A program made the position numbers and the translations under genes. From an uncultured Lachnospiraceae bacterium (GTDB taxonomy: Bacteria; Bacillota; Clostridia; Lachnospirales; Lachnospiraceae): a DNA stretch of 34,720 nt. Positions 5,260 to 30,687 of the stretch are shown here, piece by piece. The DNA lies in assembly GCA_902777355.1 (NCBI GenBank), contig CACYTU010000055.1, forward strand, positions 1 to 34,720, read 5' to 3'. Under the pieces are notes generated by a model, which saw only the letters and a program-made list of their open reading frames with translations, had not been told where the DNA came from and did not search any database. Position 1 is the stretch's first letter; every line of letters starts with the position of its first letter.

Positions 5260-5326
5260 ATGTTTTACTATATGTATTTTTATTTTCATCGCGCAATACC
5301 CGTGACATCAGTCGTGGGATACGCGC

Positions 5327-5350: not shown

Positions 5351-5366
5351 ATTTATAGGGCCGCGA

Positions 5367-9027: not shown

Positions 9028-9059
9028 ACAAATGCTCCTTGAGACAATCAAATCCAACA

Positions 9060-9151
9060 GGTCAGAGACGGTTCTGCCGCCCTCTGACCCGACCGGCCCG
9101 TGCCGTATTCGCCGCAAGGCGGAACAATTCCCCGCACGGGTCGTGCCATAA
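9060..9151 (+). repeat. Structured dispersed repeat, copy A
   Basis: Hairpin 1 pairs GGTCAGAG (9060-9067) with CTCTGACC (9082-9089). Hairpin 2 pairs CGGCCCGTGC with GCACGGGTCG around an inner CGCC-GCAA-GGCG stem, and the copy ends GTGCCATAA. It is the only copy not located behind a plus-strand gene; it lies in the divergent region between the response regulator and scpA. Confidence 0.75.
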
Positions 9152-9152
9152 T

Positions 9153-9186
9153 CAGGACAGTCCCTGAAGGATCCTGCCCTTTTTAT
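9153..9186 (+). terminator. Possible terminator abutting repeat copy A
   Basis: CAGGA (9153-9157) pairs with TCCTG (9172-9176), followed by CCC and a T-rich run from 9180. The stem is short. It begins one nucleotide after the repeat. Confidence 0.5.
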
Positions 9187-9335
9187 CTTTTTCATTCTAA
9201 CATCTTGAACTGACAAGGACAATCAGCAGAAAAAGCCATCCGCTACAGCATATCTGCGGAAAAACATCGGGAATGACTTCAGCTAAAAGCCATCCGGAAC
9301 GACGTAATACGGTGGTAACTAAATTAAGGAACAAG

Positions 9336-9363
9336 TTGCATACTTCCTGTTTCATGTTATAAT
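9336..9363 (+). promoter_or_regulatory. Promoter upstream of scpA
   Basis: TTGCAT (9336-9341), a 16-bp spacer and TATAAT (9358-9363) with an extended TG at -14/-15. It lies about 130 bp upstream of the scpA start. Confidence 0.75.
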
Positions 9364-9491
9364 GCAGAATACTGAAAATAACATTAGAACTTCAAATACT
9401 GTCTGATTTGATATTGAATCCGGGCGGATATCCGCTCCGTTTCATTTTCTTTTTCCGGCAGACACAACTGACTATCGGGAAAAACAAAGTT

Positions 9492-11045
9492 ATGGCGATT
9501 CCTGTTAAGCTCCCGGTGTTCGAGGGTCCTCTGGACCTTCTCCTGCACCTGATCGAAAAAAACAAAATAGATATTTACGATATTCCCATCGCCGGAATAA
9601 CAGACCAGTATCTCGAATATGTCCGTCAGATGGACCATGAGGATCTGGATGTGACCAGTGAATTTCTTGTCATGGCCGCGACTCTTCTGGATATCAAAAG
9701 CCGTATGCTCCTTCCCCGTGAGAAGGATGATGAGACCGGCGAGGAAGAGGGCGATCCCCGTGAAGAGCTGGTCCGCCGTCTCCTCGAATACAAGATGTAC
9801 AAGTATCTGTCCGAGGAGCTGGCTGTGTACCGGGAACAGGCTGGCGTGCGCTATTTCCGCGCTCAGAAGCTTCCCCGGGAAGTGTTGGATTACCGTCCTC
9901 CCATCAATTACGATGAACTGCTCAAGGACACTGATCTCCAGAGTCTGCAGAAAATCTTCGGGGAAGTCCTGCGCAGGAAAAAGAGCCGTCGGGACCCTAT
10001 CCGGGGCGGGTTCGGAAAGATCCGGCGGGAGGAAATCAGCCTGGATAACAAGACTCTGTACATACGGGCTTATCTGCAGGCACATCCCCGCACTGATTTC
10101 AGGGCACTGCTGGAATCCCGGGAAAGCAGAGAAGAGGTCATCGTGACCTTCCTCATTCTTTTGGAACTGATGAAAACACAGAAAGTGCACATCGTTCAGG
10201 ATTCCATCGGGGGGAAAATTCTGGTGGAAGCAGGTGCCCCAGAGGACGCCGTTGCCGGGCCTGAGGACGCTCCCGTTTCCATGGATACTCCGGAAGACAG
10301 CAGCGATGTGGCTGAGGACGATTCCGCTTCCTTGGATACTCAAGAAGACAACGACGATGTGGCTGAGGACGATTCCACTTCCATGGACATTCCGGAAGAC
10401 AGCAGCGATGGATCTGAGGCCCTCTCACCCGCAGCTTTCGAGTCTTTTGAATCGTTGGAAACTTTTGAAGGTGCTGGCAGCGAACTGCGGGACGCCGGCG
10501 GCAAGACTAATGATTCCCCTCTTGAAGCTTATGAGGACCTTGAAACTTCTGAAAGGACAGGCTGCGAATCGCAGGGTTCCGCCAGCGAGTTGTCTTCAGG
10601 CAAATCCGTGTCAACAGACGAATTTTCTCCTGCTGCTGAAATAAGAGAAGATTCAGTGCCGGGCGCCTGCGCCGGGACAGACGTTTCTCCTGTGGATATG
10701 CCTCTGACTGCCTTCCATCGAATGGAAATCGTAGCATCTGTCTATCCGCCTGAAGCCTCCTTTGCGAGATCAAATCATGAGGACTCTTCTCAGGAAGGAG
10801 ATCCTTCCCCTGCTTCTGAGAGCAGAAGTCCTGCCATCGAAGATACAGAAGCAGTCTTAACGGAGCAGGCAGGCCCCGATCCTGTGGAGAAACATTTTTC
10901 TGCGCATCTATGGTACAAAGATCCCTGCTGCAGGACACGCTATTTCCGCGTTTATTCCGGAAAGGCTGATACCGGCAAAACCCGGCCTCCACGGCAATGG
11001 ATGCACGCGAGGATGACACGACTCTGGGCGAGGCGTTTTTTCTGA
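9492..11045 (+). CDS. scpA: Segregation and condensation protein A with a long acidic C-terminal tail
   Basis: The first 248 residues are a complete ScpA: MAIPVKLPVFEGPLDLLLHL and onward through VTFLILLELMKTQKV to GGKILVEAG. ScpA is the kleisin subunit that bridges Smc heads with ScpB. The start at 9492 matches the family N-terminus, although the ribosome binding site is weak; an upstream in-frame start (9408) adds non-conserved residues. The next 270 residues are not typical of ScpA. They are acidic, Ser/Glu/Asp-rich and low complexity, with three 17-residue repeats (about 260-310), and end in a basic unrelated stretch (TRLWARRFF). The last codons overlap a sequence identical to a terminator arm. 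No scpB follows. The tail could be a real disordered extension or read-through after loss of the original stop. Confidence 0.9.
   Translation: MAIPVKLPVFEGPLDLLLHLIEKNKIDIYDIPIAGITDQYLEYVRQMDHEDLDVTSEFLVMAATLLDIKSRMLLPREKDDETGEEEGDPREELVRRLLEYKMYKYLSEELAVYREQAGVRYFRAQKLPREVLDYRPPINYDELLKDTDLQSLQKIFGEVLRRKKSRRDPIRGGFGKIRREEISLDNKTLYIRAYLQAHPRTDFRALLESRESREEVIVTFLILLELMKTQKVHIVQDSIGGKILVEAGAPEDAVAGPEDAPVSMDTPEDSSDVAEDDSASLDTQEDNDDVAEDDSTSMDIPEDSSDGSEALSPAAFESFESLETFEGAGSELRDAGGKTNDSPLEAYEDLETSERTGCESQGSASELSSGKSVSTDEFSPAAEIREDSVPGACAGTDVSPVDMPLTAFHRMEIVASVYPPEASFARSNHEDSSQEGDPSPASESRSPAIEDTEAVLTEQAGPDPVEKHFSAHLWYKDPCCRTRYFRVYSGKADTGKTRPPRQWMHARMTRLWARRFF
10269..10421 (+). repeat. Three 51-bp tandem repeats in the scpA tail
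   Basis: Units start at 10269, 10320 and 10371, with an exact 51-bp period that keeps the frame. They encode 17-residue acidic units such as DSASLDTQEDNDDVAED. Confidence 0.85.
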
Positions 11046-11083
11046 GCTATTGCCGCATGATTTGAGTTTTCTCTAGAATAATA

Positions 11084-11170
11084 GGGTAAAGGCGGCCTTG
11101 CCGCCCTCTGCCGCCGACCGGCCATGTCCGCCTCAAGGCGGAAATAATCATAACACGGGCCGTGTCATAA
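11084..11170 (+). repeat. Structured dispersed repeat, copy B
   Basis: Hairpin 1 core GGCGG-ccttg-CCGCC; hairpin 2 has GACCGGCC paired with GGCCGTGTC around inner TCCGCC-TCAA-GGCGGA. It ends GTGTCATAA and is followed directly by copy C. Confidence 0.8.
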
Positions 11171-11259
11171 ATAAGGCAGGTGCAGACTTGCGCCCTCTTC
11201 CCCGACCTGCCCGCGTCCGCCTCAAGGCGGAAAAAGGCATTGCGCGGATCGTATCATAA
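11171..11259 (+). repeat. Structured dispersed repeat, copy C (tandem with B)
   Basis: Hairpin 1 is degenerate (GGTGCAGACTTGCGCC). Hairpin 2 keeps CCGCG/CGCGG and a perfect inner TCCGCC-TCAA-GGCGGA, ending GTATCATAA three nt before the terminator arm at 11263. Confidence 0.75.
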
Positions 11260-11262
11260 TAC

Positions 11263-11343
11263 AAAACGCCTCCCCCTGGATTGATATGCTGCCCCCAGGC
11301 AGCACACCAATTACGATCAAATCACCGGGCGAGGCGTTTTTTT
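11263..11343. terminator. Terminator with branched loop
   Basis: AAAACGCCTC (11263-11272) pairs with GAGGCGTTTT (11331-11340), followed by further T. The long loop holds a second hairpin, TGCTGCC/GGCAGCA (near 11287-11304). It lies between the convergent scpA and AEC genes and works in either direction. The remaining gene-free part (11344-11482) shows only AT-rich words repeating 'attccatattgatt'. Confidence 0.75.
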
Positions 11344-11482
11344 CTGCACAGATTCCAGTCTGCACAAATTTCATATTGTTCCTTCAAAGATTCCGTATTG
11401 ATTTTCCCCTGATTCCATATTGATTCTCAGCTGATTCCGAGGGAGAACCTCGAAGAATCGAGGGAGGGATCAGACATTTGCT

Positions 11483-12418
11483 TCAGCCAAAACTGAGCAT
11501 ATAGAGATAGTCAATCAGCGGGATTGTAAACATGCAGAACATCATTCCCATCAGATTATATATACCGGCCTTGGCAGGTTCCTTGTTATAGACCACCGCA
11601 AGCTGGGGGATGTTTGCTGCGGGAGGCGCCGCGACCGCCAGAAAGGAGACTCTGAACACCGGAATAAATTCCGGAAACCGATGCAGGAATCCGCTGGCGC
11701 GCAAAACCCCAAGTGTAAGAAGGGGCAGCGCTATAAGTCTCAGAAAACTGACCAGGTAGGCCTTCTTATTTGTAAATATCTGCAGCAGGCTGCTGTCCGC
11801 CAGGGTCATTCCAATCACCAGCATGGAGGCAGGACCCACCATATCCGCAAGCATCTCTACAGCAGTGTACACAGGTCCCGGGATGGAAACATGGGCGATC
11901 AGAAGACAGACGCTGAAGGCAATCGCGATAATATTGGGGTTGAGCAGAACCTTTTTCCAGTCGATCCGCCGGCTTCCCTGCATTCTTGCCGCGGCATAAG
12001 TCCAGAAAAAAAAGTTAAATCCCAGCTGAAAGGCACTTCCGTAAAAAACCATATTATCCCCGAGAGTCATGCTCACGATCGGGAGAATCAGGTTGCCGCA
12101 GTTGGTAAAGACAATAGAGAGGCTCTCCACTAATCCAAGTATGCCCAGATGTTCAAGCAGTACGGCGATTAAAAGGAATCCTGCGTGGGCCAGAAACGCG
12201 AGAATAACTGCAAACAAATACCCCCGGATCCTTTCCGGAGTCAGTTCGATCCGGAAAGCCTTGATGAGCAGGCAGGGGCCCAGCACATACAGGGACAGTT
12301 TCGCAAGCTGCTTTTTATCCCGTTCTTCCCAAAGTCCTATACGGATCACCATATAACCGACCGCACCGACGAGCATCATGGAAACCAGTTTGCTCATCAA
12401 AACCAGACTCGTGTTCAT
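11483..12418 (-). CDS. AEC family transporter (auxin efflux carrier-type permease)
   Basis: The product is 311 aa with about ten hydrophobic segments across its length and a duplicated five-helix architecture. The mid-protein segment LSIVFTNCGNLILPIV is the AEC hallmark (conserved N and G before a proline). The C-terminal repeat has AVAAPPAANIPQLAVVY at the matching position. Members export or import organic anions such as malate or auxin-like acids across the cytoplasmic membrane; the substrate cannot be read from sequence. The start at 12418 has a GAGAGG-like site upstream. The gene is alone, convergent with scpA. Confidence 0.9.
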   Translation of the reverse strand: MNTSLVLMSKLVSMMLVGAVGYMVIRIGLWEERDKKQLAKLSLYVLGPCLLIKAFRIELTPERIRGYLFAVILAFLAHAGFLLIAVLLEHLGILGLVESLSIVFTNCGNLILPIVSMTLGDNMVFYGSAFQLGFNFFFWTYAAARMQGSRRIDWKKVLLNPNIIAIAFSVCLLIAHVSIPGPVYTAVEMLADMVGPASMLVIGMTLADSSLLQIFTNKKAYLVSFLRLIALPLLTLGVLRASGFLHRFPEFIPVFRVSFLAVAAPPAANIPQLAVVYNKEPAKAGIYNLMGMMFCMFTIPLIDYLYMLSFG

Positions 12419-12549
12419 TTTCTGATCATCCTCTCTTCCGAAGCGTGCCTCTCTCCGCAGAGGCGTCGCGTTGGGAATATTTTTTACTCCAAGTCTTCAA
12501 TCTATTCTCGAAACATGATAGTGATATCTCTGAAAGCTGTCAAGAAAAC

Positions 12550-12627
12550 ATCATAAAAATGGTGCGGGCATGGTGCGGGTATATCATAAAAACGGTGCAT
12601 GCACGGTGCGAGAATACATATCAAAAC
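12550..12627. repeat. 33-bp imperfect tandem repeat in the AEC upstream region
   Basis: Units starting ATCATAAAAA at 12550 and 12583, and a partial third near 12618, share GGTGCgggCAtGGTGCG. The region 12419-12826 otherwise contains a TATAAT at 12691-12696, a possible -10 for the gene at 12827, without a clear -35. No gene is seen. Confidence 0.7.
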
Positions 12628-12826
12628 AGAGCGTAAAATCCCTTTAGACCACAATTCCTTTTTTATTTTCCACATCTTCAGTTTTACTTGTATAATGAAA
12701 TAAGGCATGTGGAAATACACACGCCCCTTTCATAATATTTATAATATTTATAGTATTTCACCATTTGTTTTTTATCGCAAAATCATTTCTGTCGACTTGC
12801 AGACCAGGAGGTTTTTAAAAACAATT

Positions 12827-13126
12827 ATGGCTCAGAAAAAGAAAGACAGTCCCTCTCCCAAAGGTTTTTCCCATCCCGTCTATGATTCCGCTGTTCTGAA
12901 CTGTTTTCTGGAGAAGCAGCTGCAGCTGTTTCCCGAAGAGGTTGCATCTACACCGGAAGAGGCTGCGGATTTTCTGGAAATGTGTTTTGCTGTCGTAGCA
13001 AAATCCAAAAGAGAAGTGCGCACTTATTTTGAAGAGGTCGGCACCGACATTGAGGGAGAGGATATTCTTTCCGCAGCGGAGGTTTTCCCCGTTGGCGACG
13101 GGAGATATCTGATTGTAGAGGGCTGA
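12827..13126 (+). CDS. Small conserved protein of unknown function
   Basis: The product is 99 aa, MAQKKKDSPSPKGFSHPVYD and onward. AGGAGG lies about 15 nt before the ATG, which is long; no better in-frame start exists. The protein is acidic after a basic N-terminus and predicted helical (FLEKQLQLFPEEVASTPEEAADFLEMCFAVV), ending GDGRYLIVEG. I recognise it as a short conserved Lachnospiraceae protein, sometimes loosely called glyoxalase-related, but see no metal-binding motif to support that. It has no signal peptide or membrane segment. It is followed by repeat copy D and a strong hairpin. Confidence 0.7.
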   Translation: MAQKKKDSPSPKGFSHPVYDSAVLNCFLEKQLQLFPEEVASTPEEAADFLEMCFAVVAKSKREVRTYFEEVGTDIEGEDILSAAEVFPVGDGRYLIVEG

Positions 13127-13130
13127 AAAA

Positions 13131-13160
13131 GGCGGAAGCCACATTGCGATAACCGTGTCA
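13131..13160 (+). repeat. Right half of the structured repeat (partial copy)
   Basis: GGCGGAAG, then CATTGCG, then ACCGTGTCA match the 3' half of the full element. It starts five nt after the stop of the small protein gene and directly precedes full copy D. Confidence 0.65.
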
Positions 13161-13162
13161 CA

Positions 13163-13250
13163 GGGTAGAGGCGGCCACGCCGCCCTCTGCCCCCCGACCG
13201 GCCCGCGTCCGCCGCAAGGCGGAAAATACATTGCGCGGGCCGTGTCATAA
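13163..13250 (+). repeat. Structured dispersed repeat, copy D (best-paired copy)
   Basis: Hairpin 1: GGGTAGAGGCGG pairs with CCGCCCTCTGCCC. Hairpin 2: CGGCCCGCG pairs perfectly with CGCGGGCCG and encloses TCCGCC-GCAA-GGCGGA, a 6-bp stem with a GNRA-type loop. It ends GTGTCATAA, four nt before the next hairpin. Confidence 0.85.
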
Positions 13251-13254
13251 GGCA

Positions 13255-13288
13255 GGAAATGGCATGACCCGAAGATCATGCCATTTCC
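13255..13288. terminator. Strong hairpin between convergent genes
   Basis: GGAAATGGCATGA pairs perfectly with TCATGCCATTTCC (13 bp) around an 8-base loop. No T-run follows on either strand. Instead a 24-bp perfect AT-rich palindrome follows at 13291-13314, so intrinsic termination is uncertain. Confidence 0.55.
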
Positions 13289-13290
13289 GG

Positions 13291-13314
13291 AATACTATTA
13301 TTAATAATAGTATT
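13291..13314. repeat. 24-bp perfect AT-rich palindrome
   Basis: AATACTATTATT followed immediately by its reverse complement, between the hairpin at 13255-13288 and the cytidine deaminase stop. It could form a cruciform or hairpin; no function is evident. Confidence 0.8.
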
Positions 13315-13328
13315 ATTAATACTCTGAT

Positions 13329-13805
13329 TCATGCAAGGTTATCCGGTCCGAATCCAACCGGCAGCAGCTGCCCGAGAGTATAGATGTCGTAGTGCTGCCG
13401 GTCAGTCGCCAGTATAATCCTGAAGGACCCGGGATCGCAGAATTCCCTCATGACCTGGCGGCAGACTCCGCATGGTGACGAATACCCGGAAGGCTTCTCT
13501 TCGCGGCCGCCGACGATGCAGATTGCTTCAAAGTCTCTGACTCCTTCACTGACAGCCTTGAAAAATGCCGTTCTCTCCGCGCAGATCGTCGGCGTGTAGG
13601 CTGCGTTTTCTATATTGCAGCCGGTGAATATTTTTCCGTCAGCCGCCAGCAGGGCGGCGCCAACGCGGTAACCGGAATAAGGCGCATAGGAAAGCCGGCG
13701 CTGGTCCAAAGCCATGTCAATCAGAGTCCCGATCATTTCTTTATCCGGTTCAGATTTTTTGTTCATCATATAGTCTATAGTCCGCCTTCCCGCCTTTTTA
13801 CTCAT
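13329..13805 (-). CDS. cdd: Cytidine deaminase
   Basis: The product is 158 aa, with family length about 130-145 after the N-terminal extension. The zinc site is [11 protein letters not shown] (Cys ligand followed by catalytic Glu) and [13 protein letters not shown] (PCxxC, two Cys ligands). [11 protein letters not shown] and [16 protein letters not shown] are typical substrate-binding segments. It converts cytidine or deoxycytidine to uridine or deoxyuridine in nucleoside salvage. The ATG at 13805 overlaps the stop of the upstream uridine phosphorylase (ATGA), implying translational coupling; an internal start at MMNKKSE is possible because a GGAAGG lies before it. Confidence 0.93.
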
Positions 13806-14773
13806 GTCTTATCGAAACCGTCTTTTTGTAAGTCTTCCATCTCCCGCCGGTCTGCCAGGATCAGTCTGCGGATCGCCTCAACCGCTATCCTGATAGCCTG
13901 ATCCGTATCGTGCACGACAGGGTTGTACAGTCCCAGTTTTTCTCTCTCCTGGTTGGCCATAACCAGCAGGCATGTGCCGGCCCGCGCGCGCAGTCTGGCT
14001 GCCACGATAAAAATCGTTGCGGATTCCATCTCGGAAGCAAGGCAGCCCATCCTTTTCCAGGCTCTCCATTTATTTTCCAGCTCATAGCAGATCGGCATTT
14101 CCTCCGGCTCGTGCTGTCCGAAGAAAGAATCCTTGCACTGGACAACACCGATATGGCAGACTTTGACTTTTTCGTCTTCGGCTTCACTGCTGTCGGCTCC
14201 GACAGCCATATTTTCATTATTTCCTTTATTATTATCTATTTTCTTTCCTTTATTCTTTTCGCCGGGCTTATCTTTTTTGCCGACATAGGCAGAACACTCA
14301 TGGAATTCTTTACAGACAAATCCCATATCTTCAGCCGCATCTGCCAGGGCATTCGTAATCCTGTAGGAGGCAACTGCCGGATATTCGATCGGCACATACT
14401 CTTTTGTGGTCCCTCCCATACGAACAGCGCCGGTCGCAATCACAATATCACCGCTCCTGACCTCGGGCTGCATGCCTCCGCATGTGCCGACACGAAGAAA
14501 AGTGTCCGCCCCGCACAGGCTCAGTTCCTCCATAGCAATGGCGGCGGACGGGCCGCCGATGCCTGTCGATGTGACGCTCACCTTTTCGCCCTCAAGGGTG
14601 CCGGTATAAGTCACGTACTCCCGGCTGTCCGCAATGAGAACAGCATTATCAAGATATGCCGCGATTTTGGCGCAGCGCTTGGGGTCACCGGGAAGCAGAA
14701 CATAGCGGCCGACATCTCCCCTGCCCAGCTGGGTGTGATACTGCTTCGACGCGTTTTTTGAGTAATTCTTCAT
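13802..14773 (-). CDS. udp: Uridine phosphorylase with a low-complexity insertion
   Basis: The product is 323 aa from the ATG at 14773 (GGAGGAGGCGG upstream), against about 250-280 for the family. Conserved segments include [14 protein letters not shown] (phosphate binding), [39 protein letters not shown] (substrate-binding Glu-Met-Glu) and [18 protein letters not shown]. It cleaves uridine with phosphate to uracil and ribose-1-phosphate. Residues 155-204 are an inserted Lys/Asn/Gly-rich, then acidic, stretch (for example [14 protein letters not shown]) between the GFVCKEFHE and [13 protein letters not shown] segments. It is probably a surface loop, since all catalytic motifs are intact. The gene is coupled to cytidine deaminase downstream, giving a cytidine-uridine-uracil salvage unit. 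Confidence 0.92.
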
Positions 14774-14933
14774 AGTCTCCGCCTCCTCCATTTTAGATTT
14801 GCAGTCCGGATACAGCGACTGTATTCCGAAGATGATCATTCTCCAAAACCAGGAATCTGTACACTACAATTTTACTACAGATCGCTGTTTTTGAGTATTT
14901 TTACATCTCAAAAAAACAAATCATCCCACTACC

Positions 14934-14939
14934 TATAAT
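14934..14939 (+). promoter_or_regulatory. Possible -10 box upstream of the repeat-protein gene
   Basis: TATAAT in CTATAATAACA, about 160 bp before the start at 15100. I could not find a matching -35 box. The gene-free stretch 14774-15099 is AT-rich and shows no other structure. Confidence 0.4.
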
Positions 14940-15099
14940 AACATATATCAAGAGGTTCACAGAACATCCGGACCGGCAGAATCCTTGTCGTATGAAGGCA
15001 TTTATTCTACAATAAGGAAATCTCAACATTCAGACTGCGGTCCCGTTTCCAATGAATATGAGATCCGGATGAAATATATTTTCAAGAAAGGAAGATTTC

Positions 15100-17247
15100 A
15101 TGAAGACCCGTACAAATCCTATTATCATCATCGTTTCCCTCGTTCTGGTGCTCTTTGCGGGTACCGCATTTATTCTTCTTCAAAAGAAAAATCCCAACGA
15201 TGAACGGGGCACCATCAGTGGAAACATCGTGGACGCAAAGAGTAATACACAGTTGAAAGGTGTCACTGTCACCGGTGTTGATAAGGACGGAGTCCGCTAT
15301 GTTCAGCATGAATACTGTGATACGACCGGAAGCGACGGCTATTTCAGCATGGAGCTGCCTCCCAACGAATACACATTGGAATTTGAAGCTGACGGCTATG
15401 AGCCTTTTTCATCCACCTCATCCTATGAGGTCAAAAAGAACAAGACACTGGAAATCCAGGAATCTTTCCGGATGTCTGCTCTCCCGCAGTCTTCTGCCAA
15501 CGGATCTACCGGAGCAACAGCATCCGCAAGCACTGCCCCCAATGGTACAGCCACTAATCCGGGCGCCATGGCTGCTGCAGGAACTCCCCAGACTTATCCT
15601 TCTTCGGCAAACCCGGCTTCTGCCACTACTCCCGTAGCACAGCAGACTTATCCTTCCGCTGCTCAGCAGCAGGCCCAGGCTCAGCAACAGGCTCAGGCTC
15701 AGCAGCAGGCTGAAGCCCAGAGACAGGCTCAGGCTCAGCAGCAGGCTGAGGCTCAGAAGAGAGCTCAGGCTCAGCAGCAGGCTGAAGCTCAGAAGAGAGC
15801 CCAGGCTCAGCAGCAGGCTGAAGCCCAGAAGAGAGCCCAGGCTCAGCAGCAGGCTGAAGCTAAGAAGAGGGCCGAAGCTCAGAAGCAGGCCGAAGCTAAG
15901 AAGAGGGCCGAAGCTCAGAAGCAGGCCGAAGCTAAGAAGAGGGCCGAAGCTCAGAAACAGGCCGAAGCTCAAAGGCAGGCCCAGACCCCCACAACCGCAG
16001 CAGATCAGGTTCGGCCCATTTCCTTCTCTTCGTCAAGCGGGATCGGTAAACAGTCGAACAACACACCTACTGGAAACAGTGGAAAAAAAGAGCTTTCTTC
16101 CCAGGAAATGTCCGGTAATGGCAATGCTTCCAGTACCACTTCACTGGATGAGAAAAACAATAACCATAACCAGAATAATGATAAAAATCCTATAAATCCG
16201 GATGGAGGCAAAACTAACAAGCAGCCTTACAAAAATACCGCCAACTCCGGTAACGGCAATACCGGCGACTCCGGTAACGGTAATACCGGCAGCTCCGGTA
16301 ACGGCAATACCGGCAACTCCGGCAACGGCAATACCGGCAGCTCCGGTAACGGCAATACCGGCAATTCCGGCAACGGCAATACCATAAACTCCGGCAACGG
16401 CAATACCGGCAGCTCCGGTAACGGCAATACCGGCAACTCCGGCAACGGCAATACCATAAACTCCGGCAACGGCAATACCGGCAACTCCGGTAACGACAAT
16501 ACCGGCGACTCCGGTAACGGCAATACCGGCGACTCCGGTAACGGCAATACCATAAACTCCGGCAACGGCAATACCGGCAACTCCGGTGACAGCGATACTG
16601 ACAACTCCGCTGACGGAAAGACTGAGATGAAGAAAACTCAGGATCAGGAAAACAAGGATCCGGAATACGATCAGGACGGCTACAATAAAGACGGCTTCAA
16701 CAAAGACGGTTATAACAAAGACGGATATAACAAAGACGGCTTCAACAAAGACGGTTATAACAAAGACGGCTACAACAAGGACGGTTACAACAAAGACGGC
16801 TTCAACAAAGACTACAACAAGGACGGTTACAACAAAGACGGCTTCAACAAAGACGGTTACAATAAGGACGGATATAAAAAGGACGGTTACAACAAGGACG
16901 GCTACAATAAAGACGGCTTCAACAAAGACGGCTATAACAAAGAAGGATATAACAAAGAAGGTTACAACAAGGACGGATATAACAAAGAAGGTTACGGCAA
17001 AGACGGTTATAACAAGGAAGGCTACGACAAAGAAGGCTACGACAGAAACGGCTTCAACAGAGAGGGCTTTGACAGAGAGGGATTCGACAGAGAGGGATTT
17101 GATCTCTTCGGTCTCAACAGAGATGGGCTCACCCGGGAAGATCTTGAACAGGACTACAGCGAAGACACAGATACTGAAGCATATGAAGAAAGCTTTGAAG
17201 AAGACGATTACACAGGAGATGTAGACGATACAGAGTACGACTTTTAA
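15100..17247 (+). CDS. Large exported or anchored protein built from three repeat types
   Basis: The product is 715 aa, starting after GGAAG. Residues 8-27 form a membrane anchor or uncleaved signal (PIIIIVSLVLVLFAGTAFI). Residues about 40-130 resemble a carboxypeptidase-regulatory-like beta-sandwich (GTISGNIVDAKSNTQLKGVT, then GYFSMELPPNEYTLEFEADGYEPF). Residues about 188-297 are Ala/Gln/Glu/Lys repeats (AEAQKRAQAQQQ), likely a long helix or coiled coil as in TolA. Residues about 383-500 are Gly/Asn/Ser/Thr repeats (SGNGNTG), probably flexible. Residues about 523-667 are some 30 pentapeptides of form [YF]-[ND]-[KR]-[DE]-G. An acidic tail closes the protein, with no sorting signal or C-terminal anchor. 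A stalk-like surface or wall-spanning role is plausible; no enzyme domain is present. The neighbours do not suggest a pathway. Confidence 0.85.
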   Translation: MKTRTNPIIIIVSLVLVLFAGTAFILLQKKNPNDERGTISGNIVDAKSNTQLKGVTVTGVDKDGVRYVQHEYCDTTGSDGYFSMELPPNEYTLEFEADGYEPFSSTSSYEVKKNKTLEIQESFRMSALPQSSANGSTGATASASTAPNGTATNPGAMAAAGTPQTYPSSANPASATTPVAQQTYPSAAQQQAQAQQQAQAQQQAEAQRQAQAQQQAEAQKRAQAQQQAEAQKRAQAQQQAEAQKRAQAQQQAEAKKRAEAQKQAEAKKRAEAQKQAEAKKRAEAQKQAEAQRQAQTPTTAADQVRPISFSSSSGIGKQSNNTPTGNSGKKELSSQEMSGNGNASSTTSLDEKNNNHNQNNDKNPINPDGGKTNKQPYKNTANSGNGNTGDSGNGNTGSSGNGNTGNSGNGNTGSSGNGNTGNSGNGNTINSGNGNTGSSGNGNTGNSGNGNTINSGNGNTGNSGNDNTGDSGNGNTGDSGNGNTINSGNGNTGNSGDSDTDNSADGKTEMKKTQDQENKDPEYDQDGYNKDGFNKDGYNKDGYNKDGFNKDGYNKDGYNKDGYNKDGFNKDYNKDGYNKDGFNKDGYNKDGYKKDGYNKDGYNKDGFNKDGYNKEGYNKEGYNKDGYNKEGYGKDGYNKEGYDKEGYDRNGFNREGFDREGFDREGFDLFGLNRDGLTREDLEQDYSEDTDTEAYEESFEEDDYTGDVDDTEYDF
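15661..15990 (+). repeat. Ala/Gln/Glu/Lys-coding tandem repeats
   Basis: Units such as GCTCAGCAGCAGGCTGAAGC recur, first encoding AQAQQQAEAQKR and then AEAKKRAEAQKQ. Periods of about 36 bp are visible. Divergence is low within each subgroup, suggesting recent expansion. Confidence 0.85.
16246..16600 (+). repeat. Gly/Asn-coding 18-bp tandem repeats
   Basis: Units of 18 bp (ACCGGCAACTCCGGTAAC type) encode TGNSGN and variants, including a periodic INSGNGN variant that marks higher-order units. Confidence 0.85.
16666..17100 (+). repeat. Pentapeptide-coding 15-bp tandem repeats
   Basis: Units of 15 bp (TACAACAAAGACGGC type) encode [YF]N[KR][DE]G about 29 times, grading to DREGF toward the end. 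Near 16810 one unit is in-frame deleted to FNKDYNKD, one codon short (the Gly codon is missing). Confidence 0.9.
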
Positions 17248-17403
17248 ATACCCGGGGCTGACGGCAGGCAGCAGCAAAGCTCAATAGCAACGCGAAACTT
17301 TGACTATGAGAGTTTTTTGACTGAGAGAGGGTTGGAAGCCCCGGACTTTGACAATAATAAGCTTTAGCTGCACAATGCCCTGCCTGTACCGTATAATGTC
17401 ACA

Positions 17404-17435
17404 AAAACACGCTCCCGGACGGGGCGTGTTTTTTT
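17404..17435 (+). terminator. Rho-independent terminator after the repeat-protein gene
   Basis: ACACGCTCC pairs with GGGGCGTGT (one mismatch), followed by a run of seven T ending at 17435. It lies about 160 nt after the stop at 17247. Confidence 0.85.
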
Positions 17436-17549
17436 GCGTGTTTTTCCACGAAAAACATCCAGAAACACCTTGAATTTCAGGCCGGCCTGTACAGAAGCCT
17501 TTTGTACTGCCTGCACTTGCTTTGTACTTGCTTTGTGGCGGTTTTCCTG

Positions 17550-17578
17550 TTGAACTGTACGAAAATTAGCATTATAAT
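17550..17578 (+). promoter_or_regulatory. Sigma-A promoter for livJ
   Basis: TTGAAC (17550-17555), a 17-bp spacer and TATAAT (17573-17578), giving a 5' leader of about 115 nt that contains the palindrome at 17627-17650. Confidence 0.85.
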
Positions 17579-17626
17579 ACATGTTATTGTTGCTTGATGA
17601 ACAGGATCTGTATTGTTCTTCATCGT

Positions 17627-17650
17627 GCAAGACCCGCGAGTGAGTCTTGG
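17627..17650. repeat. Dispersed 24-bp palindrome, copy 2 (in the livJ leader)
   Basis: GCAAGACCCGCGAGTGAGTC followed by TTGG; it differs from copy 1 at two positions, and CAAGAC/GTCTTG still pair. It sits between the livJ promoter and its ribosome binding site at 17684-17689. Confidence 0.75.
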
Positions 17651-17698
17651 ATTCATCATGCGGCAAGGTAAAGTCCATTTATCAGGAGGTAACAGTTT

Positions 17699-18889: not shown

Positions 18890-18930
18890 TATTGGGTGAC
18901 ACCACAGTATCAACTGATACAACTCTGCGA

Positions 18931-18977
18931 TTTACAAACCTGTAAATTACAAACCTGTAAATTACAAATCTGTAAAT
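18931..18977. repeat. Three tandem 15-bp palindromic units after livJ
   Basis: TTACAAACCTGTAAA twice and TTACAAATCTGTAAA once, each with TTTACA/TGTAAA-type arms, between the livJ stop and its terminator. Confidence 0.8.
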
Positions 18978-18984
18978 AATCAGG

Positions 18985-19026
18985 ACCTCCCGGTTTCTCT
19001 GATGAGACCGGGAGGTTTTTATCTTT
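18985..19026 (+). terminator. Rho-independent terminator of livJ
   Basis: CCTCCCGGT (18986-18994) pairs with ACCGGGAGG (19007-19015), followed by TTTTTATCTTTTTT. Confidence 0.9.
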
Positions 19027-19157
19027 TTTGACACTTTTCGACATCGCCCATGTCATGATTGTTTCACAATGCTCCCGACATTGCGCGAGGTTGCGCGAAC
19101 AGAAAAAACGCCGGTCCGCCGAAGCAGTGGTGCACAAAAGACACACTGTTTTCAGCA

Positions 19158-19217
19158 GGGCCTGAACTGTAAGGCCCGGAGGACGCGGGCGCAGAGGACA
19201 GGGGCCTTATTTTTTTT
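19158..19217 (+). promoter_or_regulatory. Terminator-like hairpin with a competing upstream pairing
   Basis: AAGGCCC (19171-19177) can pair with GGGCCTT (19202-19208), followed by ATTTTTTTT. The same AGGCCC can instead pair with GGGCCT at 19158-19163. The alternatives exclude one another, as in an attenuator. Any attenuator action here would need transcription from upstream of 19158. Confidence 0.5.
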
Positions 19218-19246
19218 CGTTTGTGTTTTTCCATGCGGATAATACG

Positions 19247-19255
19247 TGGTATAAT
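19247..19255 (+). promoter_or_regulatory. Extended -10 promoter for livHMGF
   Basis: TGGTATAAT, with no strong -35 at the proper distance. A start near 19262 would give a leader of about 270 nt. That leader holds CTGTGCAG (near 19271) facing CTGCTGCACAG (near 19324), which can pair. No T-box consensus or known riboswitch is visible. Confidence 0.6.
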
Positions 19256-19533
19256 ATTGCCTAATTGAATCTGTGCAGATTTGTGCCTGTGACCTGTTTT
19301 TGAAAAAACACATGATGAAACACCTGCTGCACAGCGCCCCTCGCCCCCCGCGCCCCCCGCAGGAGACGAGGCAGTCTGCAAGCCGCATCTGTGCACATCC
19401 TGATCTGCCGTTTCCGCACAGGTTATTTCATTTAAGGCTTATATATTTGATACACGTACCATTGTAAAAAAAATATATAAGAAAATATAAAGGGAACTTG
19501 TCAACAAAATCCGGAAGGGGGAACTTTGAAACA

Positions 19534-20409
19534 ATGAGATTTCTATCCAACCTCGTAAACGGCCTGGGACTGGGAAGCGTCTACGCAATTATCGCTCTCG
19601 GTTACACCATGGTCTACGGCATCGCCAAGATGCTGAACTTCGCGCACGGCGACGTAATCATGGTCGGCGCCTACGCGGCTTTTTTCGCACTGACAAAATT
19701 TAACCTGCCACTGATCCCCGGTATACTCGCGGCAATCTTATGCTGCACGGTTCTGGGCGTCGTCGTTGAACGTCTGGCATATAAGCCTCTCCGGCAGGCT
19801 TCAAGCCTTTCCGTTCTGATCACGGCAATCGGTGTCAGTTATTTTCTGCAGAACGGGGCACAGCTGCTCTGGACCGCATCTCCCAAGATGTTCCCCGCTG
19901 TCATGTCCGGCGGCGCTCTCCAGTTCGGCGATCTTTCCATCAGCTATATCACCCTGATCACCATCGCGACCTGCCTGGTCGTCATGGTATGTCTTACTCT
20001 GTTTATCAACAAAACCAAGACCGGAAGCGCCATGCGGGCCTGCTCCGAGGATAAGGACGCCGCAAGGCTCATGGGTATCAATGTCAACCAGATCATCTCC
20101 CTCACGTTCGCGATCGGCTCGGGTCTGGCGGCGGTCGCGGCGGTGCTCCTGTGCGCCAACTATCCGACCATCACTCCCACGCTGGGTTCCATGCCTGGAA
20201 TCAAAGCCTTCACGGCCGCGGTTTTCGGCGGAATCGGCTCCATCCCCGGCGCCTTGCTCGGCGGACTTCTTCTGGGAATGATCGAAATTCTCTCCAAAGC
20301 CTATATTTCCACACAGCTGTCGGATGTCATTGTATTCGGCGTGCTGATCGTCATCCTTCTGGTGAAGCCCGCGGGACTTCTCGGAAAGAATGTACGCGAA
20401 AAAGTATAA
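19534..20409 (+). CDS. livH: Branched-chain amino acid ABC transporter permease LivH
   Basis: The product is 291 aa from the ATG at 19534 (GGGGGA upstream); a possible TTG start at 19498 adds a non-conserved N-terminus. It has about eight membrane segments. The family motifs GLGLGSVYAIIALGYTMVYGI and NFAHGDVIMVGAY mark the N-terminal half, and FTAAVFGGIGSIPGALLGG carries the EAA-like loop that contacts the ATPases. It forms the transmembrane channel together with LivM. It is the first gene of the plus-strand unit livH-livM-livG-livF, with 18 nt to livM. Confidence 0.95.
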   Translation: MRFLSNLVNGLGLGSVYAIIALGYTMVYGIAKMLNFAHGDVIMVGAYAAFFALTKFNLPLIPGILAAILCCTVLGVVVERLAYKPLRQASSLSVLITAIGVSYFLQNGAQLLWTASPKMFPAVMSGGALQFGDLSISYITLITIATCLVVMVCLTLFINKTKTGSAMRACSEDKDAARLMGINVNQIISLTFAIGSGLAAVAAVLLCANYPTITPTLGSMPGIKAFTAAVFGGIGSIPGALLGGLLLGMIEILSKAYISTQLSDVIVFGVLIVILLVKPAGLLGKNVREKV

Positions 20410-20427
20410 GCGGAAGGGAGTTCAATC

Positions 20428-21495
20428 ATGAAAGAAAACAAAGGTATTTTCGGTGTCCTTCTGGACAAGCGGCACCGGTCAAGGACTATTTCATATACAA
20501 TGGTGATCGTCGCTTATATTGTGCTTGAAGCCATGCGCATGAGCGGCAATCTGTCCAGTCTTTTTACGGGCCTTCTGGTACCCGCCACCTGTTATCTTGT
20601 GGCCGCGATCGGCCTGAATCTGAATGTCGGATTCTCCGGCGAGCTCAATCTGGGCCAGGCGGGCTTCATGGCCGTGGGCGCCTTCTCGGGCGTCTGCGTC
20701 TCGGGCCTTCTGGCAGCAAGCGTTCCTCCGGTCCTGCGGCTGATACTGGCCATCATCATCGGAATGCTGCTCACTGCCCTGGTGGGCTTCCTCATCGGAA
20801 TCCCTGTTCTGAAGCTTCAGGGCGACTATCTGGCAATCGTCACACTGGCCTTCGGCCAGATCGTCATGAACCTGATCATGAATCTGTACGTCGCATTCGA
20901 CAGCACAGGTGTCAAGGTGAGTTTCGTAGATGCCAAATTTGAACTGGGCGAGGGAGGCAAGTTCCTGATCAATGGTCCCATGGGCGCCACCGGAACAGAG
21001 CGTATCGCCAACTTCACAGCGGGGACCCTGCTGGTGCTGTTCGCGCTGGTCGTTGTCTACAACCTGATTTACTCCAGAAACGGGCGCGCGATCATGGCCG
21101 CCCGCGACAACAGAATCGCGGCGGAATCGATCGGCATCAATATCGCCAATACCAAGATGATGGCCTTTGTCATCTCCGCCTCCCTGGCCGGAGGCGCGGG
21201 TGCTCTCTACGGCCTCAACTATTCCACCATGGTCGCCAGCAAATTCGACTATAACACCTCGATCCTGATTCTGGTCTATGTCGTACTGGGCGGGCTCGGC
21301 AATATTAACGGCACACTGATCTCGACAGTCGTACTCTTCCTTCTGCCGCAGCTTCTGCGCGGGCTGCAGGACTACCGCATGCTGATCTACGCGGTCATCC
21401 TCATCCTGATCATGCTCATCACAAACAATGAAGCAATGAAGACCAGGATGGGAGCCTTCCGAAGGAAAAAGAGTAAAGTAAAAAATCCCGAATGA
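20428..21495 (+). CDS. livM: Branched-chain amino acid ABC transporter permease LivM
   Basis: The product is 355 aa, about nine to ten membrane segments, with AAGGGAG before the start. Family segments are GLNLNVGFSGELNLGQAGFM near residue 65, GDYLAIVTLAFGQI (about 132-145), and RAIMAARDNRIAAESIGIN, the cytoplasmic coupling loop. VVLGGLGNINGTLI follows in the last third. It pairs with LivH to form the membrane channel. The stop is 12 nt before the livG start, so the genes are co-transcribed and likely co-translated. Confidence 0.95.
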   Translation: MKENKGIFGVLLDKRHRSRTISYTMVIVAYIVLEAMRMSGNLSSLFTGLLVPATCYLVAAIGLNLNVGFSGELNLGQAGFMAVGAFSGVCVSGLLAASVPPVLRLILAIIIGMLLTALVGFLIGIPVLKLQGDYLAIVTLAFGQIVMNLIMNLYVAFDSTGVKVSFVDAKFELGEGGKFLINGPMGATGTERIANFTAGTLLVLFALVVVYNLIYSRNGRAIMAARDNRIAAESIGINIANTKMMAFVISASLAGGAGALYGLNYSTMVASKFDYNTSILILVYVVLGGLGNINGTLISTVVLFLLPQLLRGLQDYRMLIYAVILILIMLITNNEAMKTRMGAFRRKKSKVKNPE

Positions 21496-21507
21496 TGAGA
21501 GGTGGTT

Positions 21508-22281
21508 ATGAACGAGAATAAGACTCCCGTTTTGGAGACAAAAGAACTGGGAATTGATTTCGGAGGTCTGACCGCGGTCAACGATCTGGATCTCTCAATC
21601 TACGATGAAGAAATCGTGGGGCTGATCGGTCCCAACGGAGCAGGCAAGACAACCGTTTTCAACCTGCTGACCAAAGTATATACCCCCACCAGGGGACAGA
21701 TTATTTTTGACGGAAAAGACACGGCGGGCAAAACCGTCGTCGACATCAACAAGGCCGGCATTGCCCGTACCTTCCAGAATATCCGTCTTTTCGACAACAT
21801 GACCGTGCTCGACAACGTCCGCACAGCCTATCACAACAACATTAAGTACTCGCCGGTTTCCGCAGTCTTCCGCCTTCCCTCATATTACGCAAAAGAGCGC
21901 GAGATCGAAGGCAAGTCCAGGGAACTCCTGGAGATCATGGAACTGGGGGAATACGCGGAAGTCACAGCCGGGAATCTTCCCTACGGCGCTCAGAGGCGCC
22001 TTGAGATCGCCCGCGCCATGGCGACAGAGCCCAAGCTCCTTCTGCTGGACGAGCCTGCCGCCGGCATGAACCCGCAGGAGACAGACGACCTCATGCGGAT
22101 GATCCGATTCGTGCGGGATCACTTCAAAATCGCTGTCCTCCTCATCGAGCACGACATGCAGCTGGTCATGGGAATCTGCGAGCGCATCTACGTGCTCAAC
22201 TACGGCATGCTGCTGGCACAGGGACTGCCCGCCGAGATCCAGGCCAACCCCGAAGTCATCAAGGCCTACCTGGGCGACTGA
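21508..22281 (+). CDS. livG: Branched-chain amino acid ABC transporter ATP-binding protein LivG
   Basis: The product is 257 aa from the ATG at 21508 (GAGAGG upstream). Walker A is GPNGAGKT, and the LivG-typical insert GIARTFQNIRLFDNMTVLDNV follows. The signature motif is degenerate (NLPYGAQRRLEIARAMA, with YGAQ in place of SGGQ), as is usual for LivG. Walker B is LLLLDEPAAGMNP, with the switch His in LLIEHDM. It hydrolyses ATP to drive transport. A gap of 190 nt separates it from livF, larger than usual in liv operons. Confidence 0.95.
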   Translation: MNENKTPVLETKELGIDFGGLTAVNDLDLSIYDEEIVGLIGPNGAGKTTVFNLLTKVYTPTRGQIIFDGKDTAGKTVVDINKAGIARTFQNIRLFDNMTVLDNVRTAYHNNIKYSPVSAVFRLPSYYAKEREIEGKSRELLEIMELGEYAEVTAGNLPYGAQRRLEIARAMATEPKLLLLDEPAAGMNPQETDDLMRMIRFVRDHFKIAVLLIEHDMQLVMGICERIYVLNYGMLLAQGLPAEIQANPEVIKAYLGD

Positions 22282-22471
22282 TTCCTCCGTAACCTGGAGG
22301 CAGAAGTGACAGAGGCCGTCGCAGTACTGTTTCATACCGGTCCGTACAGTAAGTACAATCAGTACAGATAGATCTTCAAGAGTCTTGTACCGTAACCGGA
22401 AGCCCTGTCACAAAGAAAAAAGAATTGCAAAAACTCTTGCGGCTGCCCTGCGGGCAGCGAGAAAGGTTATT

Positions 22472-23176
22472 ATGCTCACAGTAGAGAATTTAAAAGTCAG
22501 ATACGGCATGATCGAGGCGATCAAGGGAATCTCCTTTGAAGTCCGGGACGGAGAGATCGTGACCCTGATCGGCGCCAACGGAGCGGGTAAGACCACGACC
22601 ATGCATGCGATTTCCGGCCTCATCAAGGCAGCGGAAGGCAGTATTACCCTGGACGGAAAAGAACTTACCAGGATACCTGCACACAAGATCGTCAATCTGG
22701 GCCTCGCACAGGTTCCGGAGGGACGCCGCGTGTTCGCCCAGCAGACTGTGGAGGAGAACCTCATTCTGGGGGCTTATCTTCGCAAAGATCAGGGCGAAAT
22801 CGCCAAGGATATTCAGGATGTCTATCAGACATTCCCCCGTCTCGGCGAGAGACACACTCAGCTTGCGGGAACTCTTTCGGGCGGTGAACAGCAGATGCTG
22901 GCAATGGGCCGTGCCCTGATGGCCAAGCCCTCCATCCTGCTGCTCGATGAGCCCTCCATGGGACTCTCCCCCCTGCTGGTTTCAGAAATCTTCCAGATCA
23001 TCGAGGAGATCAACAGGAAAGGCACTACCATCCTGCTCGTGGAGCAGAACGCCAAGCGGGCCCTCTCGATTGCGGACCGCGCCTACGTTCTCGAGACCGG
23101 CCGGATCACACTGACCGGCACCGGCGATGAACTCGCCCGCGACGAGCGCGTGCGCAAGGCTTACCTGGGCGGCTGA
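22472..23176 (+). CDS. livF: Branched-chain amino acid ABC transporter ATP-binding protein LivF
   Basis: The product is 234 aa from the ATG at 22472, which has GAAAGG upstream and matches the family start (MLTVENLKVRYGMIEAIKGI). An upstream in-frame start at 22385 adds 29 basic residues not seen in LivF. Walker A is GANGAGKTT, the signature LSGGEQQMLAMGRALM, and Walker B ILLLDEPSMGLSP, with the switch His position occupied by LVEQNA, as normal in LivF. It is the second ATPase of the importer. The upstream gap 22282-22471 includes a hairpin GCTGCC/GGGCAGC just before the ribosome binding site. The last 11 codons and the sequence after the stop are duplicated downstream. Confidence 0.95.
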   Translation: MLTVENLKVRYGMIEAIKGISFEVRDGEIVTLIGANGAGKTTTMHAISGLIKAAEGSITLDGKELTRIPAHKIVNLGLAQVPEGRRVFAQQTVEENLILGAYLRKDQGEIAKDIQDVYQTFPRLGERHTQLAGTLSGGEQQMLAMGRALMAKPSILLLDEPSMGLSPLLVSEIFQIIEEINRKGTTILLVEQNAKRALSIADRAYVLETGRITLTGTGDELARDERVRKAYLGG

Positions 23177-23243
23177 TTTTGCCGCTTCCGACTGAAGGGA
23201 GCGCGTGCGCAAGGCTTACCCGGGCGGCTGATTTTGCCGCTTC
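23144..23243 (+). repeat. Tandem duplication of the 3' end of livF
   Basis: A 45-bp segment at 23144-23188 (last codons of livF, stop and 3' flank) recurs at 23199-23243, period 55 bp, with one difference. Both copies include GGCGGCTGATTTTGCCGC, a hairpin with the stop codon in its loop. Confidence 0.9.
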
Positions 23244-23354
23244 AGCCTGCGGCGATATTTGAATTTTTACTCATTGCAAAAACATTTCTTTACAGAAGAT
23301 CTTTTTTGCGTAAAACCTGTTTTAACTGTTTAAAAACTGCAATAGGAGGGCATT

Positions 23355-24035
23355 ATGTACGTTAAAGATCATATGACAAAAGAACCGGTCACAATTACGG
23401 AGGACGTCAAGATCTCCAAGGCGGTGGACATTATGTCCAAGGGTCATTTTCACCGCCTTCCCATCGTAGATGGCGACGGCAGGCTGATCGGTCTTATCAC
23501 CGGAGGCCTTGTCACAGAGAAGAGCGGCGCCAACGCCACTTCTCTCTCCATTTACGAGCTGAACTACCTGCTCAGCAAAACCACGGTCAAAGATATCATG
23601 CTCACCGATGTCAAGACCATCAATCCCGAAGCCTTTATCGAAGAGGCAGCCCAGAAGATGCTGGACGAGGGAATCTCCGTTCTGCCGGTTGTCGACGACG
23701 ACAATCACGTGGTCGGAATCATCACGGAGAAGGACATCTTCCAGGCCTTCACAGACCTGCTGGGCTATAAGCATCAGGGCACCCGCTTTGTCTTCCAGTG
23801 CGATGACCGCCCCGGCTTCTTTGCCGGAATCGCCAAGCTTCTGGCCGACAACGAAGCCAATATGGAAGCCATGGCCGTCTATCACACAAAGGCACGCGGC
23901 ACGGAAGCTGTCGTAAAAGCGACCGGAGAAATCTCTGTCAAGAGCATGGTTGAAATCCTGGTCAACGCGGGCTATAAGCTGAATAACGTTACACAGACCA
24001 CGAAATTCGGCACAATCAAGACCTTCGATGTGTGA
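23355..24035 (+). CDS. CBS-ACT domain protein (AcuB-like)
   Basis: The product is 226 aa with AGGAGG before the ATG. Two CBS motifs lie at about 7-56 (MTKEPVTITEDVKISKAVDIM, then HRLPIVDGDGRLIGLIT) and 79-128 (VKDIMLTDVKTINPEAFIEE, then SVLPVVDDDNHVVGIITEKDI). They are followed by an ACT-like domain (about 141-215, TRFVFQCDDRPGFFAGIAKLL). CBS pairs bind adenine nucleotides and ACT domains often bind amino acids. Directly after livJHMGF it is well placed to sense energy and amino acid state of the transporter, but that role is an inference. It has no membrane segment. Confidence 0.9.
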   Translation: MYVKDHMTKEPVTITEDVKISKAVDIMSKGHFHRLPIVDGDGRLIGLITGGLVTEKSGANATSLSIYELNYLLSKTTVKDIMLTDVKTINPEAFIEEAAQKMLDEGISVLPVVDDDNHVVGIITEKDIFQAFTDLLGYKHQGTRFVFQCDDRPGFFAGIAKLLADNEANMEAMAVYHTKARGTEAVVKATGEISVKSMVEILVNAGYKLNNVTQTTKFGTIKTFDV

Positions 24036-24056
24036 TTGACTTCAATCTTTGATCGA

Positions 24057-24077
24057 CCATTGCACAGGCCGTATCAA
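24057..24077 (+). repeat. Right-end fragment of the structured repeat
   Basis: CCATTGCACAGGCCGTATCA matches the last 20 bases of the full element (cattgcgcgggccgtgtca). It directly precedes full copy E. Confidence 0.65.
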
Positions 24078-24078
24078 T

Positions 24079-24167
24079 GGGCAGAGGGGGCGGCCCCCGC
24101 CGACCTCTGCCCCCGCCGACCCATGTCCGCCGCCAGGCGCAAAATACATAAACAGGCCGGGTCATAA
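24079..24167 (+). repeat. Structured dispersed repeat, copy E
   Basis: Hairpin 1: GGGCAGAGG pairs perfectly with CCTCTGCCC, with GGCGG/CCGCC inside. Hairpin 2 keeps GACCC/GGGTC at its base and CGCC/GGCG inside. It ends GGGTCATAA, five nt before the terminator. Confidence 0.8.
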
Positions 24168-24206
24168 AAAAAGGCATTTCAGGAGATTCCCGAAATGCCT
24201 TTTCTT
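24165..24206. terminator. Terminator between the CBS-ACT gene and the MBL hydrolase gene
   Basis: GGCATTTC (24173-24180) pairs with GAAATGCC (24192-24199), with an A-run on the left and TTTTCTTT on the right, so it can serve both convergent genes. The rest of 24036-24338 holds the repeat copy and unremarkable sequence. Confidence 0.85.
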
Positions 24207-27581: not shown

Positions 27582-27639
27582 TGTCAGTCCCTGCTTTCCC
27601 GGCCGCAGCCCTGTCTCCCGCAATGATTCAGCGGGACTC

Positions 27640-30686: not shown

Positions 30687-30687
30687 A

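Follow-up and report, generated by a model that had tools for sequence, protein, structure and literature searches.

Five short sequences in contig CACYTU010000055.1 of an uncultured Lachnospiraceae bacterium are copies of a genome-wide repeat that seems to insert right beside transcription-ending hairpins. The sequence analyzed is contig 55 of a 3.87-Mb metagenome-assembled genome (MAG; here G000), and its whole stretch of 34,720 nucleotides (nt) is called the window below. We place at about 0.6 the probability that this element, about 92 nt long, is non-autonomous mobile DNA, probably folded as a single strand, that docks beside terminators on the lagging-strand template. An original prediction made from the window had seen in the same sequences a structured RNA of 3' untranslated regions (UTRs).

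Copy number and position relative to terminators

The host was sampled in 81 stretches (1,552,988 bases), to which all host counts of hits, arrays, and loci refer; 46 of them (914,662 bases) were chosen independently of hits. A BLAST search of the host gave at least 43 matches, with 40 of 146 candidates scored, and nhmmer gave 123 hits, which form 101 arrays (80 single, 20 double, and 1 triple). The unselected bases hold 45 of these hits, or roughly 190 per genome by extrapolation.

Placement was counted for the 92 arrays whose 3' end is complete and whose flank is long enough, a terminator-side hairpin being one that starts at most 16 nt past the copy. A hairpin of at least 10 kcal/mol follows 85 of the 92 copies and one of at least 15 kcal/mol follows 76, against 131 and 67, respectively, of 300 random intergenic positions, which bears out the fixed site before a hairpin that had originally been described. 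Upstream of the element, the same cut-offs are reached at 27 and 12 of 72 sites. In G055, a related species used for two-species comparison, a hairpin of at least 15 kcal/mol lies downstream in 35 of 49 cases and upstream in 6 of 45. Of 20 copies in other genera, 14 have a downstream hairpin of at least 10 kcal/mol and 9 have one of at least 15 kcal/mol, with 7 and 1 upstream. The downstream hairpins are locus-specific in sequence. Forty-eight of the 92 host copies are followed by a 10-kcal hairpin combined with an A-rich stretch, 5 of 8 (controls, 13/300), and a forward T-run was scored after only 45 of the 92.

Structure and covariation

The repeat begins with AAY, continues with hairpin 1 (GGGYAGAGGCGGC...GCCGCCCTCTRCCC) and a bulged hairpin 2, and finishes with ATAA; its terminal motif can be summarized as GTGTCATAA. 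Hairpin 2 reads GAC CGGCCCGYG TCCGCC GNNA GGCGGA aAATACATTA CRCGGGCCG T GTC, in which one T is bulged and the internal loop is one-sided; the extra GAC/GTC base that carries the bulged T was missing from the original prediction. The ends are precise: of 42 first or single copies whose match starts at position 1 of the model, 41 carry A at -2 and 41 carry Y at -1, and end profiles show AAY ahead of hairpin 1 and ATAA behind hairpin 2.

Covariation is strong on both alignments used. The first, made with MAFFT, holds 53 of 71 near-full copies; the 18 omitted, among them copy A of the window, are mostly longer or lower-scoring. This alignment is itself unfitted to any model, and the structure imposed on it was written by hand; the covariance model R1 was built from it. 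In it, 90.5% of cells are paired, 14 of 31 pairs have changed on both sides, and the covariation score is 0.173, compared with 0.108 (standard deviation 0.005) after shuffling and at most 0.067 after sliding. The second is a cross-genus alignment of 63 matches aligned to the model, which leans towards the structure; there, 27 of 31 pairs show changes on both sides, with a score of 0.302 versus 0.119. Compensatory change in mobile DNA that must fold has a published precedent in REPINs, as the available text of PMC3116915 describes.

The same covariation also favors a structured RNA at the 3' ends of mRNAs, acting in stability, in processing, or as a 3'-UTR small RNA, which would be made with the upstream gene and end at the terminator. 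GCAA (43 of 104) and GTAA (18 of 104) tetraloops in the plus orientation point the same way. Both strands of the three copies that were folded fold well as RNA and as DNA, with somewhat better z-scores for the plus strand, again in the direction of an RNA. Selection on a plus-strand RNA at each locus should favor G-U pairs; in the unfitted alignment these (64) do not exceed A-C mismatches (59), which speaks against a 3'-UTR RNA, but the model-fitted cross-genus alignment, with 87 versus 54, speaks for one. That the family has no name holds as well: the window has zero Rfam matches at the gathering threshold, and the four copy-bearing loci searched at E≤1 gave no relevant family and one weak unrelated hit.

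Copies in the window

The five copies of the window lie where they had been placed, all on one strand. Copy D folds individually into the two-hairpin design described for it (z -8.0 as RNA and -6.8 as DNA), and the other window copies match R1. The copies and their adjoining features are the following.

9057..9151, plus strand: copy A, with AAY start, hairpin 1, hairpin 2 with an insert, and CATAA (R1, 52.2 bits)
9153..9184, plus strand: weak hairpin and T-run after copy A (<10 kcal/mol)
11081..11170, plus strand: copy B1, the distal one of the two units of array B (R1, 83.9 bits)
11171..11259, plus strand: copy B2, terminator-proximal unit of array B (R1, 56.1 bits)
11263..11343, no strand assigned: terminator-like hairpin with A-tract and T-tract adjoining copy B2 (arms read from the sequence)
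13129..13161, plus strand: remnant unit, 5'-truncated, before copy D (nhmmer model positions 54-86, 10.8 bits)
13160..13250, plus strand: copy D, near the family consensus (R1, 115.6 bits, top among the matches listed; folds)
13255..13288, no strand assigned: strong hairpin adjoining copy D, without a plus-strand T-run (arms read from the sequence)
24058..24076, plus strand: 3'-end remnant of an older unit before copy E (by eye; not among the nhmmer hits)
24076..24167, plus strand: copy E (R1, 52.4 bits)
24170..24204, no strand assigned: symmetrical terminator (A-tract, hairpin, T-tract) adjoining copy E (arms read from the sequence)

Divergent genes flank copy A, and convergent ones flank B, D, and E; here as elsewhere, the genes flanking copies are our own codon-usage calls. 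The weak hairpin of copy A is one of the 7 among 92 host copies with less than 10 kcal/mol. Array B is flanked by GGGCGAGGCGTTTTTT at 11027-11042 and 11328-11343, about 300 nt apart.

Orientation to genes and to replication

Ninety-seven G000 arrays have genes on both sides. The element points against both neighbors in 48, lies between convergent genes in 33, runs with both neighbors in 13, and lies between divergent genes in 3; 4 more are at edges. The corresponding G055 counts are 26, 24, 2, and 0, with 5 at edges and one duplicate dropped. The 48 versus 13 split between codirectional genes indicates that the terminator is mostly that of the opposite-strand gene, and that the element there follows the T-tract. 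About half of the copies are thus antisense to both neighbors, past the T-tract of an opposite-strand gene. An RNA made with its upstream gene fits the 46 of 97 loci that have such a gene in the same direction and has against it the 48 that are antisense to both neighbors. The structure, covariation, and position originally described and the lack of an Rfam family are all supported, and a 3'-UTR RNA made with the upstream gene is not.

Orientation follows replication. The plus strand of the element has the G-poor sense at 71 of the 86 G000 loci with usable GC skew and at 24 of 30 convergent ones (binomial p 0.0014). By gene-strand majority, which agrees with skew (r 0.84), the G000 counts are 55/72 overall and 14/19 convergent, and by skew those of G055 are 42/52 (p 9e-6) and 15/20. 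As a control, 49 element-free convergent regions with a hairpin show no bias (stronger T-tract leading in 17, lagging in 21, equal in 11). A preference for the lagging-strand template, which is a feature of IS200/IS605 elements, is therefore found in both G000 and G055. That orientation follows replication even between convergent genes speaks against a 3'-end RNA, as does the lack of a match in 51 of 62 genus genomes, and we consider such an RNA quite unlikely.

Distribution

Within the genus, the element is present in 11 of 62 genomes and unmatched in 51 (at most 70 candidates scored per genome, under stricter filters); the carriers have at least 70, at least 69, at least 69, 29, 14, 5, 3, 2, 2, 2, and 1 matches. 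Beyond the host, R1 finds relatives in 6 of 299 family genomes with 14 candidates scored per genome (G207, G270, G219, G130, G245, and G096), which represent six further genera, two of them resting on single weak matches. With 150 candidates scored, these genomes have 11, 2, 1, 4, 1, and 1 matches, respectively. The weak ones are those of G245 and G096 (28.5 and 28.6 bits), and the G096 match lacks the CATAA end. Most relatives in other genera have the same plan with other stems: AATCGAGCAGGG...CCCTGCTCG, then GCGCCGGGCCGCG TTCGGC GTAA GCCGAA nnnTTCCTTA CGCGGCCC GTG TGC ATAAA.

A 22-base end pattern was found in 22 stretches of named genomes, all of them MAGs of Eubacteriales (S24M_St_59_sub, S2M_St_27) or uncultured Lachnospiraceae (RUG375, RUG12566). 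This pattern has no match in viral contigs, and copy D has none in the phage and plasmid collections. No description of this repeat turned up in the titles and abstracts covered, outside of which lie many papers on bacterial repeats; Lachnospiraceae go unmentioned in the available portions of PMC12306157 and PMC2267715.

Empty sites, arrays, and loss

Flank matching between G000 and G055 paired 25 G055 and 14 G000 arrays on both flanks. By our count, these give 14 distinct loci with an alignable terminator (score at least 40), rows unalignable at the terminator being left out. On reading, the element is missing from that side in one of the two species at 7 of the 14, common to both at 4 (at one of these just a 40-nt part in G055), and represented by a short 3' remnant at 3. 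Sites filled in G055 and empty in the other species are L180/L087, L194/L062, and L204/L096; those filled in G000 and empty in the other species are L032/L206, L052/L190, L093/L214, and L030/L191. No target duplication was seen by eye at the empty-site pairs. Also by eye, ATAA, the candidate for a fixed target tetranucleotide of the IS200/IS605 kind, stands at the matching place in L214 and L062, stands nearer the hairpin in L087, and is lacking in the other 4. Beyond the terminator of L062 there is a sequence resembling an old copy in the opposite direction, as if both sides of a terminator were usable.

These distributions bear on a cellular DNA function beside terminators, for example in gyrase or nucleoid-protein binding, with copies kept by selection. 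The fixed place and orientation, the plan conserved across genera, and the gyrase binding of REP (repetitive extragenic palindromic) sequences, one role among others in the available text of PMC6006769, would suit it. Patchy presence in the genus, copies that decay and form arrays, and only 4 of 14 comparable loci common to G000 and G055 argue the other way, and we give this function a low probability.

Within arrays, 7 of the 15 tandem joints listed have GTGTCA or GCGTCA immediately followed by AYAGGR, with no ATAA in between, and the others vary. Per position, the terminator-proximal unit is the higher-scoring one in 20 of 28 G000 arrays (p 0.036).

Losses at the two ends are unequal in G000, where 26 copies lack the far end and 7 the terminator end, and solitary copies that lack the far end are not more diverged than solitary full ones (median 0.85 in both; 13 and 56 copies). 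This would suit a retroelement similar to a short interspersed element (SINE), whose plus-strand RNA, ending in AUAA, would undergo target-primed reverse transcription from a 3' end within the terminator T-tract. However, the excess in G055 is small (9 versus 7, in 40 stretches), several copies that look truncated proved to have internal deletions when inspected, and orthologous remnants reveal that sequence was lost after insertion. Truncation at the 5' end, tried as proof of retrotransposition, was weakened by these deletions and by the G055 counts. Reverse transcriptases are also unevenly present, with one partial gene at a contig end in G000, two in G062, one in G207, two in G270, one in G096, and no match in G055, G009, G219, G130, and G245. 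A retroelement of this kind is very unlikely in our estimation.

Search for a mobilizing enzyme

A miniature element of the REP/REPIN or IS200/IS605 type, mobilized by a Y1 (HUH) transposase that is either encoded elsewhere or no longer present, agrees with the lagging-strand preference and the subterminal bulged hairpins, which are typical of such elements in the available text of PMC6006769 and PMC8266576, and with the absence of a visible target duplication. G000 has three Y1 matches, and G130 and G096 have 4 and 1. On the other side, Y1 matches occur in 44 of 62 genus genomes without tracking the repeat, and the 99% complete G207, with 11 copies, has none. Three other carriers (G270, G219, and G245) likewise have none, which makes 4 of the 6 outside the genus, with MAG gaps possible. 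The ends of the element lack a GTAG motif. There is no repeat hit in the sampled DNA around the three G000 Y1 genes, and the upstream regions of six Y1 loci (three in G000, one each in G055, G009, and G062) show no such ends by eye. Movement by Y1 is in our view doubtful, if less so than the other alternatives. Both Y1 transposases and reverse transcriptases were set aside as mobilizers, as neither tracks the element, with MAG gaps leaving room for a missed gene. Between copies 3.5 kb (G270) and 6.8 kb (G207) apart, no obvious transposase was seen when frames of at least 130 amino acids were listed and read by eye, without a family search.

Proposed mechanism and evaluation

For the favored reading of a mobile, single-strand-folding DNA repeat, the data show directly the position, orientation, replication bias, patchy distribution, empty sites, covariation, and array joints, and from them we infer a single-stranded intermediate, an enzyme, and an order of events. 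Oriented as 5'-terminator hairpin-TTTT-TTAT/GACACGG...CCCTRTT-3', the element falls on the lagging-strand template. Hairpin 2, with its bulged base and one-sided internal loop, would form the terminator-side end and hairpin 1 the other end. A trans-acting enzyme would link the hairpin 2 end to the T-tract side of a pre-existing intrinsic terminator, presumably when the replication fork leaves the strand exposed. Further insertions at the same terminator could then produce head-to-tail arrays in which newer units tend to be terminator-side. Compensatory changes may arise in active source lineages, which would need intact hairpins, and inserted copies would later decay; selection would thereby act on the folding of mobile source copies.

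Several points weigh against a mobile repeat of this kind. Movement of a copy was not caught directly, and terminator-proximal units in G055 are not better preserved (4 of 8). L062, one of the 7 empty sites, has an apparent old copy across its terminator. Only 14 of the 20 copies in other genera have a downstream hairpin that reaches 10 kcal/mol, and strand assignment depends on the GC skew of sampled stretches. The search gave no mobilizer, with no Y1 match in G207, G270, G219, and G245, all of which carry relatives, and most of the genomes compared are incomplete MAGs. A plan kept across genera could alternatively signal a cellular function.

Comparison with known systems

We file the element as a new variant of miniature mobile DNA, outside the REPIN, single-strand insertion element, and group IIC intron families, because it lacks a defining feature tested for each family. 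With REPs and REPINs, as described in the available text of PMC3116915 and PMC8266576, it shares short length, intergenic position, high copy number, lack of genes, hairpins (some bulged), compensatory changes, and tandem clusters. Unlike them, it has no GTAG guide tetranucleotide (GT[AG]G 5' of the hairpin foot was looked for and is absent), its two hairpins are dissimilar and not inverted twins, one end is fixed at a terminator, and several carriers have no match to the Y1 family with which RAYT-associated repeats go. It resembles IS200/IS605 and their gene-less derivatives in its folded ends, lagging-strand template preference, and lack of visible target duplication, but on our reading hairpin 2 begins at the junction and leaves no space for an internal guide sequence, and TnpA (Y1) was not found in 4 of the 6 carriers outside the genus. 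Group IIC introns insert at intrinsic terminator hairpins (PMC3898094, available text), and insertion after an intrinsic terminator is found here too; the element differs in its length of about 92 nt, in having no Rfam match (window and four loci), and in the lack of a reverse transcriptase match in several carriers. Classical miniature inverted-repeat transposable elements (MITEs) are likewise non-autonomous, dispersed, and intergenic, but here no inverted repeats join the ends and empty sites show no target duplication. In the way it works, the element may resemble a REPIN or single-strand insertion element, with a docking place like that of group IIC introns.

Other repeats

A second repeat family, ATT-CAAGACTCGC..GCGAGTCTTG...GATGAAGAATAA, occurs in the window at 5324-5356, 17624-17656, and 30660-30692. 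The sampled stretches hold 40 cores of this family, 28 of them with the GATGAAGAATAA tail, and it adjoins the main element at some loci. A link of this repeat (CAAGACTCGC...GATGAAGAATAA) to terminators was dropped, since by eye most of the 28 tailed copies are not beside a hairpin. A separate palindromic repeat is formed by tandem and inverted copies of GGAGACAGGGGACGGTTCTTTGTCTCC at 2977-3105 and 5136-5204. The window also contains three short-repeat runs (periods 18, 24, and 15 nt) at 15625-17153 inside the long open frame 15100-17247, a direct duplication of 51 nt whose two copies are 94% alike, located where a gene ends (23144-23249), and an array of 8-9 nt TTTTGAGCTTTC-type units at 27639-27840. 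Other abundant intergenic repeat families of the host are found at L069:5387-5821, L061:7711-7894, and L063:1926-2139 (components of 208, 74, and 18 segments).

Significance

More generally, we tentatively suggest that the element represents a class of gene-less mobile DNA present across several Lachnospiraceae genera, for which terminators may serve as lagging-strand docking sites and whose mover may be neither a Y1 transposase nor a reverse transcriptase. The docking rule can be tested directly, given the kept structure, strand rule, and empty sites of the element, and the missing enzyme offers discovery work a defined target. The element is also a warning that strong covariation and a fixed place before terminators can stem from mobile DNA and not from regulatory RNA. 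Landing almost only beside terminators spares genes, and a repeat that spares genes can reach very high copy numbers.

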